From Rhizobacter sp. Root1221 (GTDB lineage: Bacteria > Pseudomonadota > Gammaproteobacteria > Burkholderiales > Burkholderiaceae_C), in assembly GCF_001425785.1 (NCBI RefSeq), contig NZ_LMDI01000012.1, forward strand, positions 125,566 to 189,565: a stretch of 64,000 bases of DNA, written 5' to 3'. Positions within the stretch are counted from its first letter, which is position 1, and each line of letters begins with the position of its first letter. Made by a program: the position numbers and the translations under genes. Below, piece after piece: positions 37,196 through 59,649 of this stretch. The notes beneath the pieces were generated by a model. The model saw only the letters and a list, made by a program, of their open reading frames with translations. It did not search any database and was not told the DNA's origin.

Positions 37196-37828
37196 ATGGC
37201 CTCAGCCGCACCTGAAGACTGGAGCGAACGGAGCCGCCTGCTCTCGGCGCTGCTGGCGCGTGCTGCACTTGGCGATCGCGAGGCTTTTGCACGCCTTTAT
37301 GATCGGTCCAGCCCGCATCTGCTCGGCGTCATCCTGCGTATCAACCGGGACAGGGCGCAGGCCGAGGATCTCCTGCAAGAGGTCTACGTGAGCATCTGGC
37401 GTGCCGCCGGCACGTTCGACGCCGCACAAAGCCAACCCCTGACGTGGTTGACCAGCATCGCACGCAACCGCGCCATCGACAGCCTTCGACGCAAGCAGAC
37501 CGAGCCGCAAACCCGGCCTGCCCCGCTGAACGACGACGAGGACCGCGACGTGTACGACGATGTGGCCGATCCGGCTCCCGGGCCGGTCGCCCTGCTGGGC
37601 GAAGCCTCCGACGCCCGTGCGCTGACGCACTGCCTGGACCAGTTGAGCGGCCCGCAGCGCCAGAGCGTGGCGCTGGCCTTCTACGACGGACTCACCCATG
37701 CCGAGGTGGCGGCACAGATGCGCCAGCCGCTCGGCACCGTGAAATCGTGGGTGCGGCGTGCGCTGCAGGCGCTCAAGAGCTGCCTCGACAGCGCGGTCGT
37801 TCGCGACACCCGCGCCGGGGAGTCCTGA
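37196..37828 (+). CDS. ECF RNA polymerase sigma factor
   Basis: The 210-residue protein has region 2 (FARLYDRSSPHLLGVILRI ... AEDLLQEVYVSIWRAAGTFD, with LTWLTSIARNRAIDSLRR) and region 4 (LTHAEVAAQMRQPLGTVKSWVRRALQALK). It is followed one base later by a membrane anti-sigma gene, the standard arrangement. Target genes are not evident; a second RskA-like protein is encoded at 53064-53564. Confidence 0.9.
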   Translation: MASAAPEDWSERSRLLSALLARAALGDREAFARLYDRSSPHLLGVILRINRDRAQAEDLLQEVYVSIWRAAGTFDAAQSQPLTWLTSIARNRAIDSLRRKQTEPQTRPAPLNDDEDRDVYDDVADPAPGPVALLGEASDARALTHCLDQLSGPQRQSVALAFYDGLTHAEVAAQMRQPLGTVKSWVRRALQALKSCLDSAVVRDTRAGES

Positions 37829-37829
37829 G

Positions 37830-38519
37830 ATGGACTACTCCCGCACCGAACGGGCCGACCGCCTCGCCGCGGCCTATGTCGCCGGCACGTTGCGGGGCCG
37901 CGCGCGCCGGCGTTTCGAATCGCTGCTCGGCGGCCACCCGGCGCTGCGCACGGCGGTCCGGGCCTGGGAACACCGCCTGATGCCGCTGACGGTGACCGTG
38001 CCACCCGTGCAACCGTCGCCCCAGGTGTGGAAGCGCATCCAGGCCCGCACCGCCGAACCCGCACCCGCGGCCGGCGGCTGGTGGGCGCGGCTGTGGGTGT
38101 GGCGCGGCCTCACCGCCGTGGCCACGGTGGCCATGCTGTCGCTCGGCCTGCTGCTGGCGCTGCCCGACGCGGCCCGGCCGCCGGTGGTGGTGGTCCTCGC
38201 GGCCACGGGCGGTGCACCGGGCGACGAGGGGGTGATCCCCGCGTCGTTCGTGGCCGGCATCAGTGCCGATGGCCAGGCCATGGTCACCAAGCCGGTCACG
38301 CCGGGCGCGCTGCACGCCGGGCGTTCGCTCGAACTGTGGTCGCTGCCACCCGCGGGGGCACCGCGCTCGCTGGGCGTGATCTCGGCCCACGGGACCACGG
38401 TGGTGCAACAGGGCAAGGTGCTCGACAACACCGCAGCGCTGGCCGTGAGCCTGGAGCCCGCAGGTGGCTCACCCACGGGCGCCCCCACCGGCCCGGTGCT
38501 CTTCGTCGGGAAACTATGA
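37830..38519 (+). CDS. anti-sigma factor (RskA C-terminal domain)
   Basis: The 229-residue protein has an N-terminal helical part that would hold the sigma factor (residues 1-70, with RRRFESLLGGHPALRTAVRAWEHRL), one transmembrane helix (about 92-112, TVAMLSLGLLLALP) and a periplasmic anti-sigma-K domain with LELWSLPPAGAPRSLGVIS. No zinc-binding HxxxCxxC motif is seen, so it is the non-zinc type. It begins one base after the sigma stop and overlaps the convergent waaF gene end by six bases. Confidence 0.85.
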   Translation: MDYSRTERADRLAAAYVAGTLRGRARRRFESLLGGHPALRTAVRAWEHRLMPLTVTVPPVQPSPQVWKRIQARTAEPAPAAGGWWARLWVWRGLTAVATVAMLSLGLLLALPDAARPPVVVVLAATGGAPGDEGVIPASFVAGISADGQAMVTKPVTPGALHAGRSLELWSLPPAGAPRSLGVISAHGTTVVQQGKVLDNTAALAVSLEPAGGSPTGAPTGPVLFVGKL

Positions 38520-53670: not shown

Positions 53671-56193
53671 ATGTTGAACTGGCTTTTCAAGAAAAAAACC
53701 GTGGCACCCCCGGCGCCGGTGCGCCCCGCGACACCCCCCGCCCCGGCGGCGCCGTCGCCCGAGGTGCTGGCCGCGCGAGCCGCCGAATGGTCGGCACGCC
53801 TCTCGCAGGCCCTCGGGGACGACACGGCGCTGCTGGCGCTGGCCCGCGAGGCGCCGGGCGTGGACACCAAGCTCGCGGCCGTCGAGGCGCTCGCCGGCGA
53901 GGTGGCGCTGAAAGAGGCCGAGCGCGAATTCCGCACCCACGACCGCCGTGTGCACCGCGCCGCGAAACAGCGCCTCGCGGCCGCCGTGGCCACCCGCACC
54001 GCCCGCGAAACCGCCGACCGGCTGATCGACGCGGCCGAGGGCCTGCGGGGCGAGGCTGTCATCCCGGCGAACCGCCTGGTGGCGCTTGACCGCGACTGGC
54101 ATGCGCTCGATGCCGCCCTGCTCGACCCCGCCCAAACCGCGCGGTTCGCCGCACTCACGGCCCAGCTCACCGCGTTGATGCACGAACGTGCAGAACGCGA
54201 AGCGGCCATCGTCCGCTGGACGGCCTCGGCGCGCGAGGCACTGGCCGGCCTGCAGACCACGTGGCTTGCCGTGGCACAGGGCGTGGAAGCCGTGCCCGTG
54301 CTGACGGCCGCGAACGACGCCGCCGGGGCCCTGCTGGCGGCCCTGCCGCTCGGGCATGTCGACGTGGCGCTGGTGGATGGCCTCACGGCCGCGCGCCTGA
54401 CCGCGCAGCAGGTGGCCGGCCGCGCCGTGGTGGTGGTGTCGCTCGACGAGCCGATCGAGGACGCCGCCGCCGTGACCGCCAGCTGGACGAACCTGCCCCC
54501 GGTTGCCGACCCGCGTGCGGCCCGCGCACTCGACCAGCGCTGGGACGCCTGGTGGCGTGCCCAGGCCACCCCCGACGTGGCCGCCCCGCCGCCGCCCGAG
54601 AAAAAGCCCGCGCGCCCGCGCCCGGCGCCCGTGGACCCGGAATCGGTTGCCCGTGCCGAGGCGCTGTTGCAGCAGGCCGAGGCCGCGCTGGCCGAAGGCC
54701 ACCTGGCCGAGGCCCACCAGCACCTGGCCGCGCTCGACGACATCGCCACGCCGGGCCAGCGCCCGCGCCTGCAGGGCCTGTGGGCCGAACACGGCCGCCT
54801 GAAGGGCTGGCAGCAATGGGGCGGCGCCCGCGCCCGCGACGACCTCGTCACCGAGGCCGAGGCCCTGGCCACGGCGTCCGCCGCGCCCGACGCGAAGGTC
54901 AACGCCCGCCAGCAGGCCGACACCATCGACGGCCTGCGCAAGCGCTGGAAGGAACTCGACCGCCTGGGTGGGGCCACCGGCCAGCCGCTCTGGCTGCGGT
55001 TCGACGCGGCGCTGAAAACCGCTTACGAGCCGGTGGCCGCCGCGCAGGCGCGGGTGGACGCCGAACGGGTGGCCAACCTCGAGGCGCGCGAGGCGCTGCT
55101 CGCGGTGCTGGAGGCCACGCCGCCGGCCCACGACACCGGGTGGCGCGAGCAGGTGCGAGCGCTCGACACCTTCCAGCAGGCCTGGCGCAAGCACGGCCCC
55201 ATCGAACACACCGTGCCTCACAAGGCACGCGAGGCGCTCGTGGCCCGCTGGCGTGCCGCGGTGGCACACATCGAAGCGCCGCTCGAGGCCGCCCGGCGCG
55301 AGGCCGAACGCGGCCGCGAGGCCCTGATCGAACGCGCGAACGCGCTGGCGGCCGAAGGGGCCTCGGGCCGCGGCCGCGACCTGATCCCGCGGGTGCGCGA
55401 CCTGCAGGCCGAATGGCAGGAACATGCCAAGACCGTGCCACTCGCCCGCGCCGCCGAAAACGCGCTGTGGACCCGCTTCAAGGCCGAGACCGACGCGGTC
55501 TTTGCGCAACGTGAAGCTGCCTTCAGTGCGCGTGACGACGAATATCGGGCCAACCAGGCCGTGCGCGAAGGGCTGATCGAACGCCTGGCCGCGCTGGGTG
55601 CCGACACCCCCGCCGGCGAATTGAAGAAGGTGATGGGTGAGGTGGACCGACAGTGGTACCACGCCGGGGACGTGCCGCGACAGGAAGTGGGCCGCCTCGA
55701 ATCCGCGTACCGTGCTGCACACGATGCCGCCCTGTCGCACCTGGCGTCCAGCGCCCAGCGCACGTGGCAGGCCACGGTGGACGCCGTGATCGCCCGCCAC
55801 GGGTTGTGCGAGCGCCGCGAGCGCGACGGGGCCCATGCCGACCTCGATGCCGCCTGGGCGGCCCTGCCCGCGGTGCCGGCCACATGGGACCGCGCGCTCA
55901 CCGCCCGCTGGTCGGGCAGCCCCGCCACCGCAGACAGCGCGGTGGTGGACGACTGGCTGCTGCAGGTGGAAATGGCGCTCGACATGCCGTCGCCCGAGGC
56001 CTACCAGGCCGCGCGGCGCGACTGGAAGCTGCGTGCCATGAAGGCCGCGCTCGAATCGCGCCAGGGGTCGCCCGACCACACGGTGGGGCTGGACGACGGC
56101 CTGGCGCGCCTGCTCGCGCACGCGGCGCTGACGCTGGCGCAGCGCGAGCGTTTCGACGCCATCGTGGGGGTGCTGCGCACGCGGCCGCGCTGA
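53671..56193 (+). CDS. large DUF349 protein
   Basis: The 840-residue protein consists of an N-terminal low-complexity Pro/Ala linker (residues 10-35) and several helical DUF349 repeats, recognisable by W-aromatic and basic patterns such as LRKRWKELDRLG, FQQAWRKHGPIEH and LQAEWQEHAKT. It is rich in Ala, Arg and Glu and likely forms long coiled-coil-like bundles. Family function is unknown; some DUF349 proteins have been tied to cell envelope or stress. Start at ATG 53671; no operon partner. Its high Arg/Ala content keeps long shadow frames open on the other strand. Confidence 0.8.
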   Translation: MLNWLFKKKTVAPPAPVRPATPPAPAAPSPEVLAARAAEWSARLSQALGDDTALLALAREAPGVDTKLAAVEALAGEVALKEAEREFRTHDRRVHRAAKQRLAAAVATRTARETADRLIDAAEGLRGEAVIPANRLVALDRDWHALDAALLDPAQTARFAALTAQLTALMHERAEREAAIVRWTASAREALAGLQTTWLAVAQGVEAVPVLTAANDAAGALLAALPLGHVDVALVDGLTAARLTAQQVAGRAVVVVSLDEPIEDAAAVTASWTNLPPVADPRAARALDQRWDAWWRAQATPDVAAPPPPEKKPARPRPAPVDPESVARAEALLQQAEAALAEGHLAEAHQHLAALDDIATPGQRPRLQGLWAEHGRLKGWQQWGGARARDDLVTEAEALATASAAPDAKVNARQQADTIDGLRKRWKELDRLGGATGQPLWLRFDAALKTAYEPVAAAQARVDAERVANLEAREALLAVLEATPPAHDTGWREQVRALDTFQQAWRKHGPIEHTVPHKAREALVARWRAAVAHIEAPLEAARREAERGREALIERANALAAEGASGRGRDLIPRVRDLQAEWQEHAKTVPLARAAENALWTRFKAETDAVFAQREAAFSARDDEYRANQAVREGLIERLAALGADTPAGELKKVMGEVDRQWYHAGDVPRQEVGRLESAYRAAHDAALSHLASSAQRTWQATVDAVIARHGLCERRERDGAHADLDAAWAALPAVPATWDRALTARWSGSPATADSAVVDDWLLQVEMALDMPSPEAYQAARRDWKLRAMKAALESRQGSPDHTVGLDDGLARLLAHAALTLAQRERFDAIVGVLRTRPR

Positions 56194-56305
56194 CCGGAAG
56201 AAAGTCGTAAGGCCCTGGGCTCCGGGGCGACAGAGGGGGGTGGGTCCTGCGGTGCACATGCCGTGTGCCGGGGCCCTCACCCCTTTTTTCATCCAGGAGC
56301 TCACC

Positions 56306-56563
56306 ATGATCCAGTTCAAGTCCGGCCTCGCGATGGCCACCGCAGCCGCCGCCCTGTTCGCGATGGGTGTGACGGCCCCCGTCCATGCTGCCGAGGAGGG
56401 CATGGTCAAGTGTTCCGGCGTCAACAGCTGCAAGGGCACGTCGGAATGCAAGACGGCCAAGAGCGACTGCAAGGGCCACAACAGCTGCAAGGGCCAGGGG
56501 TGGGTGTCGAAGAAGTCGGCCGAGGAATGCATGAAGGCCGGTGGTACCGTCGTCAAGGGCTGA
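56306..56563 (+). CDS. bufA2: bufferin-type (BufA2-like) exported Cys-rich metallophore precursor
   Basis: The 85-residue precursor has a signal peptide (MATAAAALFAMGVTAPVHA, cleavage near Ala29) and a short core with six cysteines at 36, 42, 48, 55, 61 and 75, in the repeated pattern K-C-x-G-x-N-S-C-K-G and KGHNSCKGQG. This is the BufA2 family. Family knowledge: bufferins are ribosomally made peptides whose cysteines are converted to thiooxazole-type groups by a DUF692 (MNIO) enzyme with a DUF2063 partner and which sequester copper in the periplasm. Both partner genes follow at once (6-base gap). AGGAG precedes the ATG. A GTAAG (56207) / CGACA (56228) pair upstream could be an ECF-type promoter, tentatively. 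Confidence 0.85.
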   Translation: MIQFKSGLAMATAAAALFAMGVTAPVHAAEEGMVKCSGVNSCKGTSECKTAKSDCKGHNSCKGQGWVSKKSAEECMKAGGTVVKG

Positions 56564-56569
56564 CAGGTC

Positions 56570-57406
56570 ATGGCACCGGCACTGCGTGGTTTCGGCCTCG
56601 GGTTGCGGCCGGCGCACTACCGTGATTTCCTGGACACCCGGCCGCGTGTCGACTGGCTCGAGGTCATCTCGGAAAACCACATGGTGCCCGGTGGCAAGCC
56701 GCTGTTCCACCTCGACCGCATCCGCCGGGACTTCCCCGTCGTGATGCACGGCGTGTCGCTGTCGATCGGCGGCACCGACCCGCTCGACCGCACCTACCTG
56801 GCCGGCCTGAAGGCCCTGGCGGCGCGTGTCGAACCGGCGTGGGTGTCCGACCACCTGTGCTGGACCGGTGTCAGTGGCCGCAACCTGCACGACCTGTTGC
56901 CCGTGCCGATGACCGAGGAGGCCCTCGACCACCTCGTGCCGCGGGTGCACCAGGTGCAGGACACGCTCGGCCGCAAGCTCGTGCTGGAGAACGTGTCGAG
57001 CTATGTGCGGTTCGACGGCGACGAGATGCCCGAATGGGAGTTCGTCCCGGCACTGCTGCAACGCACCGGCTGCGACCTGCTCCTCGACGTCAACAACGTC
57101 TACGTGAGCAGCCGCAACCACGGCTTCGACCCGGTGCGCTGGCTCGACGCGGTGCCCCGCGACCGCGTGCGCCAGATCCACCTCGCCGGCCACGACGACC
57201 AGGGCGACGTGGTCATCGACACCCATGACCGCCCGGTATGCGATGCCGTGTGGGCCTTGTATGCCCACGCCGTGCACCGTTTCGGCGACGTGCCAGCCAT
57301 GATCGAACGCGACGACCACATTCCCCCGCTCGGTGAACTGATTGCCGAGCTCGACATCGCGCGCCGCATCGCAGCCGCGGTCCTGCAGCCGGCGGAGGCC
57401 GCCTGA
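56570..57406 (+). CDS. bufB: DUF692 multinuclear non-heme iron oxidase (BufB-like)
   Basis: The 278-residue protein is a TIM-barrel of the MNIO/DUF692 family: [70 protein letters not shown] and THDRPV, which together supply the His/Asp/Glu ligands of two or three iron ions. These enzymes oxidatively modify cysteines in partner peptides such as BufA. It lies between bufA2 (6-base gap) and the DUF2063 gene (1-base overlap). Confidence 0.9.
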
Positions 57407-58122
57407 TGAGCGCCTACGGCACGCAGCTGCGCGGTTTGCAGCGGGCCATCCTGCGGGGGGGCGCTGCCCCGGGGGTGTCTGGCCACCTGCCGGTGTACCA
57501 GCACGCGGTGCCGGCGCGCCTGTCCGCGGCCCTGCGGGACAACTTCGGCGTGTTGCCGCAGCTGATGGGTGACGACGGCTTCGAGGCCCTCGCCCTCGCA
57601 TACCAGCAGGCCCACCCGTCGCGTCACCCGTCGATCCGCTGGTTCGGCGACCGGCTGGCGGCCTTCATGGCCGAACGCGACGACCTCGTGCGCCACCCTG
57701 CCATGGCCGACATGGCCCGCTTCGAATGGGCGCTGCGCACCGCATTCGATGCGGCCGATGCCACGCCATTGCAAGGAGAGGACCTCGCGGGGCTGGCGGC
57801 CGACGACTGGCCGGGGCTCGTGCTGCACCCGCACCCCAGCGTGCAGACCGTGGCGCTGCAGTGGGCCATCGCACCCGCCTGGCGCGCGCTGCAGGCGGGA
57901 TGGGACGCGCCGGAACCCGAACCGTTCGTGCACACGGTGCTCGTGTGGCGCGCGGGGCTGGCCACCCGGTGGCGGTCGCTGGACCCGATGGAAACCACGC
58001 TGCTCCACGCGGCCCGGGCCGGTGAACCGTTCGCCGCGCTGTGCGAGCGGTCGGGCGGACCGGAGGCCGCCGTGGCGGCGCTGCAGCAGTGGCTGGCCGA
58101 CGGCCTGCTGGTCAGGCCGTGA
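57406..58122 (+). CDS. bufC: DUF2063 putative DNA-binding/partner protein (BufC-like)
   Basis: The 238-residue protein starts YGTQLRGLQRAILRGG and has the helical DUF2063 N-terminal domain (LPVYQHAVPARLSAALRDNFGVLPQLMGDDGFEALALAYQQAHP) and a C-terminal domain. Although the domain is named putative DNA-binding, family knowledge is that it partners the MNIO enzyme and helps to recognise the peptide, much like a RiPP recognition element. It overlaps bufB by one base and ends convergent with the NadR-like gene (11-base overlap). Confidence 0.85.
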   Translation: MSAYGTQLRGLQRAILRGGAAPGVSGHLPVYQHAVPARLSAALRDNFGVLPQLMGDDGFEALALAYQQAHPSRHPSIRWFGDRLAAFMAERDDLVRHPAMADMARFEWALRTAFDAADATPLQGEDLAGLAADDWPGLVLHPHPSVQTVALQWAIAPAWRALQAGWDAPEPEPFVHTVLVWRAGLATRWRSLDPMETTLLHAARAGEPFAALCERSGGPEAAVAALQQWLADGLLVRP

Positions 58123-59110
58123 ACGGCATCGCGGCCACGGTGGCCCGCACACGTGCGGCGAGCGGGCCGCGCACCTCGATCCAGGGCATGCCCCGGGCTG
58201 CGAGCTGTTCGCGGTACCAGGCCTGCTGGCGGGTGCGGAAGGCGGCGTCCAGGCGGGAGCCATCCTGGTGGAAGGCGATGTCGTCGCCGCACAGCACGTT
58301 CAAGGTGTAGGGCCGATCGGCCAGGTCCGCGAGCGCAGGGTCGGCGCGGCCGTGCATCCAGTGGGCGTAGCCGAACGTGGTGAGCGGCGAGGTGTCGCAC
58401 ACCAGCACGGGCGCGGCCGTGCGTGCGGCCATGTCTTCCCGGCGGCCCTGTTCGATGGCGATCGCGAGCAGGTCCGGCTCGGTCAACTCGCCACCCTGCA
58501 CCTCCCACCGTTCGCGGCCGTATTCGGCAACCCACACCGTACCCCAGTGGTGGGCCAGGGCCGCGGCCAGCGTCGTCTTGCCAGTGGACTCGCCCCCCAG
58601 CAGCGCGACGCGGGGCACGAGGTCGGCGCGCACGGCGGCCGGCAACCAATCGAGCATCGACGCCGGGCGGGCGCGGATCGCCGTGGCGCTGACCGGCACC
58701 AGCGCCCGCGCCGGGTCGAACAGCACCGGTGCCACCGGGTGACCCAGCGCGGCTGACAGCACCGCCGCACACGGTCCCACGTAGGGTTCGCTCGCGAACA
58801 TCGCGTCGGGGCGGCGCTGCAGGTGCATCAGCAGCGAGGCCAGGTGGCGCTGGTGAGTGCGGTCGTCGGCCGAATTGGGCGGCGCGTCCGCGCCGTCAAG
58901 CACGAGGGCCTCGTGGCCGGGGCACACCGCGGCCAGCCAGCGCCGCCGGCGTTCGGGGCCGAGGCCGGGGAACTCGGGGTTCGAGTAGCTCAGCAGCAGC
59001 AGGCGGTCGCACTGCGCGGCGGCGTGGTCGATCAGCGCGAGGTGCCCGAGGTGCAGCGGGGCGAACTTGCCCACCACCAGGCCCAGGCGGAAGCGTTTCA
59101 GGCTCGCCAT
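58112..59110 (-). CDS. nadR: NadR-like bifunctional NMN adenylyltransferase / nicotinamide riboside kinase
   Basis: The 332-residue protein has a nucleotidyltransferase domain (residues 1-155) with GKFAPLHLGHLAL (HIGH-type) and VSATAIRARP (ISSTxxR-type), and a kinase domain (168-332) with P-loop GGESTGKTT (172-180) and AEYGRE and DTSPLTT. It would make NMN from nicotinamide riboside and NAD from NMN. The N-terminal HTH of enterobacterial NadR is absent. It overlaps pnuC by 13 bases, consistent with joint use: PnuC imports NR and the kinase traps it. Confidence 0.87.
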   Translation of the reverse strand: MASLKRFRLGLVVGKFAPLHLGHLALIDHAAAQCDRLLLLSYSNPEFPGLGPERRRRWLAAVCPGHEALVLDGADAPPNSADDRTHQRHLASLLMHLQRRPDAMFASEPYVGPCAAVLSAALGHPVAPVLFDPARALVPVSATAIRARPASMLDWLPAAVRADLVPRVALLGGESTGKTTLAAALAHHWGTVWVAEYGRERWEVQGGELTEPDLLAIAIEQGRREDMAARTAAPVLVCDTSPLTTFGYAHWMHGRADPALADLADRPYTLNVLCGDDIAFHQDGSRLDAAFRTRQQAWYREQLAARGMPWIEVRGPLAARVRATVAAMPFTA

Positions 59111-59649
59111 TGCCGCCACCAGTGCCAGCCGCCCCACCAGGCGTTGAGCCAGTACAACGCGTACAGCCCCGCGGTGAGCGTGAGCCCGCGCGAGGCGAAC
59201 AGCGGCACCGACACCGTGTTGACCAGCAGCCAGAACGCCCACGTCTCAAGGCGCCGCTGCATCAGCAGCAGCTGGGCCACCACGCTGAAGGAGAGCACGG
59301 CCGAATCGGCAAACGGCGCGTACGCGTCGGTGAAGTGGTGCAGCAGGGCCCCGTAACCCACGGTGACTGCCGCTGCGCCCAGGCCCATCCAGGCCAGGCC
59401 GCGCGGTGCCGCGCGCGACACCGGTGCCACCTGCCGCCGCCAATACCACCACCCGAAGGCGCTGGTGACCACGAAAAACACCTGCAGCAGCGCGTCCGCG
59501 TACAACTGGGCTCCGTGGAACACCAGCCCGAACAGCACGCACCCGGCGATGCCCGTGGGCCAGGTGGCCACGTGGTTGCGGGCGGCCAGGCCGATCGACA
59601 CGGCGGTGACCAGGTTGGCGGCCAGTTCCAGCGGTGGCGGGATCAGCAT
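59098..59649 (-). CDS. pnuC: nicotinamide riboside transporter PnuC
   Basis: The 183-residue protein has six to seven transmembrane helices with PnuC features: ELAANLVTAVSIGLAARN at the N-terminus, WPTGIAGCVLFGLVF, VVTSAFGWWYWRR and, near the end, GLYALYWLNAWWGGWHWWRQW. It carries nicotinamide riboside into the cell by facilitated diffusion. It overlaps the adenylating-enzyme gene (7 bases) and the NadR-like gene (13 bases). Confidence 0.9.
   Translation of the reverse strand: MLIPPPLELAANLVTAVSIGLAARNHVATWPTGIAGCVLFGLVFHGAQLYADALLQVFFVVTSAFGWWYWRRQVAPVSRAAPRGLAWMGLGAAAVTVGYGALLHHFTDAYAPFADSAVLSFSVVAQLLLMQRRLETWAFWLLVNTVSVPLFASRGLTLTAGLYALYWLNAWWGGWHWWRQWRA

Follow-up and report, generated by a model that had tools for sequence, protein, structure and literature searches.

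The operon and its neighbourhood

This study concerns a bufferin-2 gene cluster at 56306-58122 of a 64-kb stretch of DNA (the window, by which the whole stretch is meant) from a 6.9-Mb Rhizobacter genome, G000. The features that enter the argument, in order of position, are these:

37196..37828, plus strand: SigK-like ECF sigma factor (PF04542, PF08281)
37830..38519, plus strand: RskA-type anti-sigma factor of the SigK-like ECF (PF10099, 64.6 bits, cut-off 29.4)
56207..56231, plus strand: putative ECF-type promoter element GTAAG-N16-CGAC (-35 at 56207-56211, -10 at 56228-56231), lying 99 nt upstream of bufA2
56306..56563, plus strand: bufA2, 85-aa type-2 bufferin precursor (NCBIfam equivalog NF050166, 94.1 bits, cut-off 60)
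56570..57406, plus strand: bufB, MNIO (DUF692) bufferin maturase (NF050167, PF05114, PDB 3bww, ERDD)
57406..58122, plus strand: bufC, predicted DUF2063 + RRE-like partner of PME type 1 (Pfam DUF2063, PF09836, 58.9 bits; structure-model matches)

The three buf genes lie on one strand, with a gap of 6 nt between bufA2 and bufB and an overlap of 1 nt between bufB and bufC, which bears out the tight three-gene set proposed in an earlier note on this DNA. The family assignment made there, bufferin 2 with an exported Cys-rich precursor, an MNIO and a DUF2063 partner, agrees with the NCBIfam, Pfam and structure matches, and the order of bufA2, MNIO gene and DUF2063 gene is that expected for a Buf2 bufferin. 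It is also true, as had been claimed, that neither DoxX nor a sigma gene adjoins the cluster: the upstream neighbour of bufA2 is a DUF349 gene, and downstream of bufC, at 58112-59649 on the minus strand, are a NadR-like gene (AAA_28 + cytidylyltransferase) and an NMN-transporter gene, likely a NAD salvage pair. One copy of BufA2 over the NF050166 cut-off was found in G000.

BufB scored 386 bits against the NCBIfam equivalog NF050167 (cut-off 310) and 376 bits against the Pfam family MbnB_TglH_ChrH (PF05114), matched PDB 3bww by sequence at 2.7e-51, and fell 92 bits below the HvfB cut-off (267.8 vs 360). A search of GTDB genomes with BufB gave 303 loci, and relatives were drawn from the best 80 of these. 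Residues H60, D94, E140, H184, H204, D217, H219, E246 and D248 are kept in at least 98.5% of 81 aligned rows, ERDD is present in 79 of the best 80 relatives, and the Asp-Asp pair of the window enzyme, D248-D249, is as in Cys-Lys type enzymes. According to the accessible text of PMC13097082, the second Asp of ERDD is tied to the substrate Lys of Cys-Lys precursors, and a Lys-Asp contact is proposed. No PDB chain matching BufC by sequence was found. Its predicted structure (pLDDT 94.5, 43-sequence alignment) matches Neisseria 3dee (E 3.2e-5) and chain A of 8hci, the TglHI complex (1.5e-5); chain D of 8hci is the MNIO, as seen in the BufB search, and therefore chain A should be the partner protein. 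At 39.1 bits BufC lies under the HvfC equivalog cut-off of 142 (NF050145), outside HvfC, and by its modelled fold it is a PME type 1 partner with a DUF2063 and an RRE-like domain.

The precursor, its relatives and its proposed maturation

The six Cys at 36, 42, 48, 55, 61 and 75 of the precursor were read in the translation as the earlier note had given them. By eye alone, the N-terminus appears to be of Sec type, with a charged start, a hydrophobic stretch and a VHA-A site, and each of the four inner Cys (42, 48, 55 and 61) is directly followed by Lys. Among the best 80 of 303 BufB loci, 74 have BufA2 directly upstream of bufB, and 45 of these 74 have 5-5-6-5-13 as their last five Cys gaps, which is the commonest pattern and exactly that of the window, so that the idea of a spacing peculiar to this precursor has to be given up. 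In a further 25 the pattern is 5-5-6-5-12, with the last gap alone differing, and the remaining four comprise two precursors at contig ends (L030, L071), one with a longer core (L020) and one with a misread start (L076). At the four inner Cys the next residue is Lys in 71, 69, 65 and 66 of the 72 precursors with at least six Cys in the same best-80 set. The motif EGKCG, said earlier to mark BufA1, belongs instead to oxazolin/fontiphorin precursors, BufA1 being DUF2282 in the accessible portions of PMC12452194 and PMC13097082. No BufA2 directly upstream of the MNIO gene on the same strand was found at six of the 80 loci (L016, L053, L057, L063, L068, L070); of these L063 begins at a contig end and L016 has its precursors on the opposite strand. 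L053, L057, L068 and L070 are MNIO + DUF2063 loci whose enzymes are close relatives of BufB, with no BufA2 found adjoining. In nine loci (L020, L024, L036, L042, L055, L065, L075, L077, L085) the BufA2 relatives bear an additional N-terminal Cys in a lipobox-like setting, and the longer core of L020 has additional Cys repeats.

DoxX follows bufC directly in three of the best 80 of 303 loci (L030, L031, L041), five of the 80 ending less than 1300 nt past bufB and being too short to show it; elsewhere it lies upstream (L048) or on the opposite strand (L042, L050, L073, L078, L080). The purpose-built profile used for this count recovers DoxX in 11 of 11 buf1-type loci of the genus (L226-L236). 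Sigma genes are reported in Buf1 clusters and not in Buf2 clusters in the accessible text of PMC12452194. With its common Cys spacing, with DoxX rare among relatives and a sigma gene usually absent, the cluster is thus typical of Buf2. What had been called a minimal version does stand without DoxX and without a sigma gene; this is, however, the usual Buf2 composition, a Buf1-DoxX cluster is present elsewhere in the genome, and an ECF-type promoter element stands in front. That complete Buf1-type cluster with DoxX (L002; G000:C56:79320-83150) is preceded by the same element. Its members are a DUF2282 precursor (86.6 bits vs 22.4), a DUF2063 protein (50.2), DoxX (64.3) and an MNIO which is 46% identical to BufB and, at 309.5 bits, just below the BufB cut-off of 310. 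As far as sequence can tell, the three genes in the window are a bona fide and ordinary bufferin-2 operon.

A path of maturation may be proposed from characterized relatives. In the accessible portions of the published work, MNIO-PME1 pairs convert Cys to 5-thiooxazole with loss of four H (PMC13097082), Buf1 has its central Cys modified and its outer two in a disulphide (PMC12452194), and bufferins are copper chelators aiding growth in copper excess (PMC12452194). BufA2 would be synthesised as an 85-residue preprotein and its Cys oxidised in the cytoplasm by a BufB-BufC complex, most likely at the Cys-Lys pairs 42, 48, 55 and 61; each modified Cys would become a 5-thiooxazole, losing four H, and Cys 36 and Cys 75 would form a disulphide after Sec export, both steps by analogy with Buf1 and fontiphorin. 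The mature periplasmic peptide would then bind copper. We infer the modification sites, the chemistry and the metal of the window bufferin from these analogies.

The promoter element

The gap of 112 nt before bufA2 holds GTAAG-N16-CGAC. A single match to GTAAG-N15..17-CGAC was obtained in the 64-kb window against 0.48 expected by chance, so that the lone match is not significant, and its weight is supplied by comparison with relatives. In upstream regions of at least 200 nt each (82 after L001, L003 and L004, which are copies, and L016 were dropped), GTAAG-N15..17-CG[AT]C occurred in 54, compared with a mean of 0.32 and a maximum of 2 in 50 shuffles and with 1 on the reverse strand. Four of the 82 regions are duplicate records and one belongs to buf1; of the 77 distinct buf2 loci, 49 bear the motif, the window included (shuffles ~0.3). 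When all 5-mer/4-mer pairs at spacings 14-19 were counted, GTAAG-N16-CGAC came first (36 loci). Spacer sequences vary among the loci, which argues for selection, although the loci are related. The -10 before buf2 is mostly CGAC, with CGTC alone in 4 of 49, and the window copy reads CGTAAG and not TGTAAG. We infer from these sequence comparisons that GTAAG-N16-CGAC functions as a promoter.

Genes sharing the element

The same element precedes the buf1 and the msrP of G000 itself. Across 11 genomes of the genus TGTAAG-N15..17-CGAC gave 84 matches vs 145 for the reversed control pattern; it is not enriched genome-wide, and the location of the matches is what counts. Forty-eight of the 71 matches examined (of 84) sit 25-200 nt before a recurring set of genes, a share that is partly circular since the set was defined from these same matches, and 23 have no assigned target. 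The element was found before buf2 in all seven genus genomes with BufA2 (the G000 copy in the CGTAAG form), before buf1 in nine and before msrP in eight, these three targets being the part to be expected from the Caulobacter SigF regulon, whose unlinked MNIO operon we take to be buf2. The precursors of both Caulobacter SigF MNIO operons are listed as DUF2282 in the accessible text of PMC3511200. The msrP genes of G005 and G007 were left out of the count although similar motif copies exist there, and a buf2 target in G005 was dropped; that genome has no BufA2, so the match was taken as belonging to its buf1. Other genes preceded by the element were msrA, egtB, egtD and an alpha/beta-hydrolase-like gene (three genus genomes each), a DM13-like protein gene (four; DM13 under the Pfam cut-off), thioredoxin-like, catalase-related and small membrane protein genes (two each) and the SigK-like ECF gene (one). 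Among these targets, NCBIfam models confirm MsrA, EgtB and EgtD in one case each and MsrP in two, including that of G000. In G000 the TGTAAG form has six matches, assigned to buf1, msrP and a small membrane protein gene with three left without an assigned target, and the CGTAAG form is known before buf2 and beside L111, an ECF gene considered below. In three Rhizobacter genomes (L150, L154, L167, L152, L158, L164) the first base of the element lies 49-64 nt ahead of the starts of egtD and egtB. Gene position here suggests that ergothioneine synthesis may be under ECF control in these three genomes.

It could be argued that the operon is an ordinary copper-response operon under a copper regulator or a housekeeping promoter, with GTAAG-CGAC a relic or a product of chance. 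Bufferins are, as noted, reported to chelate copper and to help in copper excess (PMC12452194), one window-wide match to GTAAG-N15..17-CGAC did arise in 40 of 100 shuffles, and in the accessible text of PMC10304878 the related gig operon of Cupriavidus is induced by Cu and Au, while deletion of the neighbouring ECF gene rpoQ raised and did not lower gig expression, a result that counts against the oxidant link. Against this explanation, the element is found, with spacers that vary, at 54 of 82 loci when 0.32 are expected, it is common to buf1 and msrP in the same genome, and no match to a sigma-70 type promoter was found at 56000-58400; we regard the explanation as unlikely. A copper signal could act through the ECF system.

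Candidate sigma factors

An ECF-type promoter shared with buf1 and msrP, the reading that we prefer, has counterparts in pathogens. In the accessible portions of the papers, msrA/msrB and the factor's own operon, NMB2140-NMB2145, are transcribed by Neisseria sigmaE, for which the promoter consensus is GTMAGBWTT - 12-13 nt - CGTCTAAH (PMC2893595), and in H. influenzae exposed to hypochlorite the factor RpoE2, which has an anti-sigma of 67 aa, governs msrAB together with one operon that comprises DoxX, COG3220 and DUF2063 genes (PMC7907618). These gene names come from the H. influenzae work; the meningococcal paper calls NMB2141-2143 hypothetical (PMC2893595, PMC7907618). The window element fits the Neisseria consensus at the right spacing, the -10 being CGTC there and CGAC here. 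Roseateles koreensis has a sigmaE-type ECF (NF009173, 294 vs 255 bits; TIGR02943, 230 vs 162) whose gene is back to back with buf1 and the motif, and it is taken as the Neisseria sigmaE counterpart on the grounds of its TIGR02943 match, its promoter and its neighbours.

Proteins at least 42% identical to the Roseateles ECF were sought in 58 genomes, the 11 of the genus set and 47 from the 80 loci (two of these Rhizobacter), and association with the motif was assessed over 46 of the 47 outside the genus set, G031 having no upstream DNA. Of the 35 genomes in which the motif precedes buf2, 33 had a sigmaE-type ECF, as against 3 of the 11 in which it does not (p 2.5e-5, a value which ignores kinship). 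The exceptions lacking a strict motif before buf2 were G014, G034 and G035, which have a sigmaE-type ECF, and G011 and G012, which have an L111-type ECF, while G057 has the motif and neither type of ECF. Among 30 fetched loci buf1 lies beside the sigmaE-type ECF in 20, all but one of which have the motif ahead of buf1 (19 of 20), and a protein of 57-79 aa with HxxxCxxC lies beside it in 25; two of these small proteins were tested, one being an NF052368 anti-sigma and the other meeting no Pfam model. A motif match within the region 4 coding sequence of the sigmaE-type ECF was discounted as a coincidence of coding, because many loci have it at the same place in the gene.

No sigmaE-type ECF of at least 42% identity was found in G000, where the best match is L111 (C12:6165-6623), an ECF factor of 36% identity, which at 100 bits is below the TIGR02943 cut-off of 162 and beside which no small anti-sigma was found at the locus. 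The L111 clade joins the sigmaE-type ECFs at 98/98, with long branches flagged, and L111 is present in 10 of the 11 genus genomes, G001 being the exception; G003, G004 and G010 have a 51% sigmaE-type gene in addition. In G000:C12 (L329:2700-3627) L111 is back to back with the response-regulator gene of a two-component system. A CGTAAG element stands between L111 and the divergent response-regulator gene in 8 of 13 L111 loci, ~34 nt before the regulator start where checked. L111 is our first choice for the sigma that would serve the bufA2 promoter in this strain.

The other candidate is the SigK-like ECF/RskA pair at 37196-38519, 18 kb upstream, and the SigK-like ECF was at first taken as the likely sigma from its genus distribution: orthologues of 76-78% occur in 9 of the 10 other genus genomes, all motif-bearing, and G001, the sole genus genome without the motif, has no orthologue at this level. 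The motif is also in the gene's own promoter in G007 (L192) and in Methylibium G014 (L243), but not in the other 9 of 10 genus genomes, G000 included. L111, moreover, is distributed over the genus in the same way and clusters with the sigmaE-type ECFs. Over the 46 other genomes the SigK-like ECF was found in 6 of 35 with the motif before buf2 and in 3 of 11 without it (p 0.66), and after this wider test gave no support the pair was ranked second; that it, and not L111, reads the bufA2 promoter seems improbable.

Control of the window cluster by SigF/NrsF, as for the two DUF692/DUF2063 operons and the YedY gene that Caulobacter SigF controls from GTAACC-N16-CGAA in the accessible text of PMC3511200, was rejected as very improbable indeed, for although in the relative G001 a set of this kind lies next to buf1 (an ECF gene, NrsF at 220 bits, TGTAAC..CGAA elements), G000 has no NrsF at E 0.1 and the window element is GTAAG/CGAC and not GTAACC/CGAA. 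The G001 set is at L344 (G001:C1:39000-43500), and no match to TGTAAG-CGAC was found in the G001 genome. Between G001 and the other Rhizobacter, to judge from these genome sequences, the control system is swapped inside one genus.

Proposed regulation and its meaning

In the arrangement that we favour, the bufferin-2 operon would be transcribed from GTAAG-N16-CGAC by a sigma whose gene lies at another place in the genome and which belongs, or is akin, to the group of Neisseria sigmaE and H. influenzae RpoE2, and buf2 would be co-controlled with buf1 and msrP in G000. We consider it probable that the window holds a bufferin-2 operon whose BufA2 is oxidised by BufB-BufC and binds copper, and which has an ECF-type promoter shared with buf1 and msrP and read by a sigma acting in trans; the inducing signal and the particular sigma of the operon are putative. 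The best reading of the gene and promoter patterns is an ordinary bufferin-2 cluster that would be wired in trans into a periplasmic oxidant and methionine-repair regulon. Gene company and promoter likeness hint that the bufferin peptide may be part of a wider repair response and not of copper defence alone. More tentatively, and with rather less confidence, it is possible that the bufferin-2 operons of Burkholderiales and their relatives belong, in trans, to a sigmaE/MseR-type regulon with msrP, msrA, egtB, egtD and peroxide handling, which would place bufferins in a combined oxidant-and-copper defence of the periplasm, and that in Rhizobacter this regulon has passed to a diverged ECF which has no small anti-sigma and whose gene adjoins, back to back, a two-component system bearing the motif.

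The cluster is one more member in a family of thousands, and the promoter matters more. Buf2 clusters bear no regulator, and in the accessible portions of the open-access literature we found no statement of how they are switched on in Betaproteobacteria, nor of ECF control of a Buf2 cluster there. A promoter shared with methionine sulfoxide reductases opens a direct test of whether bufferins respond to oxidants (hypochlorite), to copper or to both, and such a test concerns environmental bacteria instead of pathogens.

Comparison with known systems

Compared with other Buf2 bufferins (NF050166, Buf2 of C. vibrioides and the Cys-Lys captophorins in the accessible text of PMC13097082), the window cluster has the same six-Cys spacing and bufABC order, a precursor with an apparent signal peptide, Cys-Lys motifs, the Asp-Asp of BufB, a predicted DUF2063-RRE partner and neither DoxX nor a sigma gene; the differences are at residue level alone and nothing in them is defining. 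With HvfABC oxazolin/fontiphorin it would share the MNIO + DUF2063 chemistry and, by analogy, the 5-thiooxazole product, whereas their precursors bear EGKCG (Lys-Cys) repeats and the window BufB is under the HvfB cut-off. Caulobacter SigF/NrsF offers a parallel in which, in the accessible text of PMC3511200, two MNIO operons, of which one is unlinked, are under the same ECF sigma as YedY; the promoter element there is another, and G000 is without NrsF in the E 0.1 search. A further resemblance is to sigmaE/MseR of Neisseria meningitidis, which has near-identical -35 and -10 elements (PMC2893595), and, as far as the accessible portions of the papers extend, both sigmaE/MseR and H. influenzae RpoE2/HrsE join methionine sulfoxide reductases with a DoxX/COG3220 (MNIO)/DUF2063 operon (PMC2893595, PMC7907618). 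As with sigmaE/MseR, the ECF gene has a small HxxxCxxC protein next to it at 25 of 30 related loci. Unlike that system, buf2 stands apart from the sigma gene, its -10 is mostly CGAC, the Rhizobacter ECF candidate L111 is distant and without a small anti-sigma, and the element also precedes ergothioneine genes in three Rhizobacter genomes.
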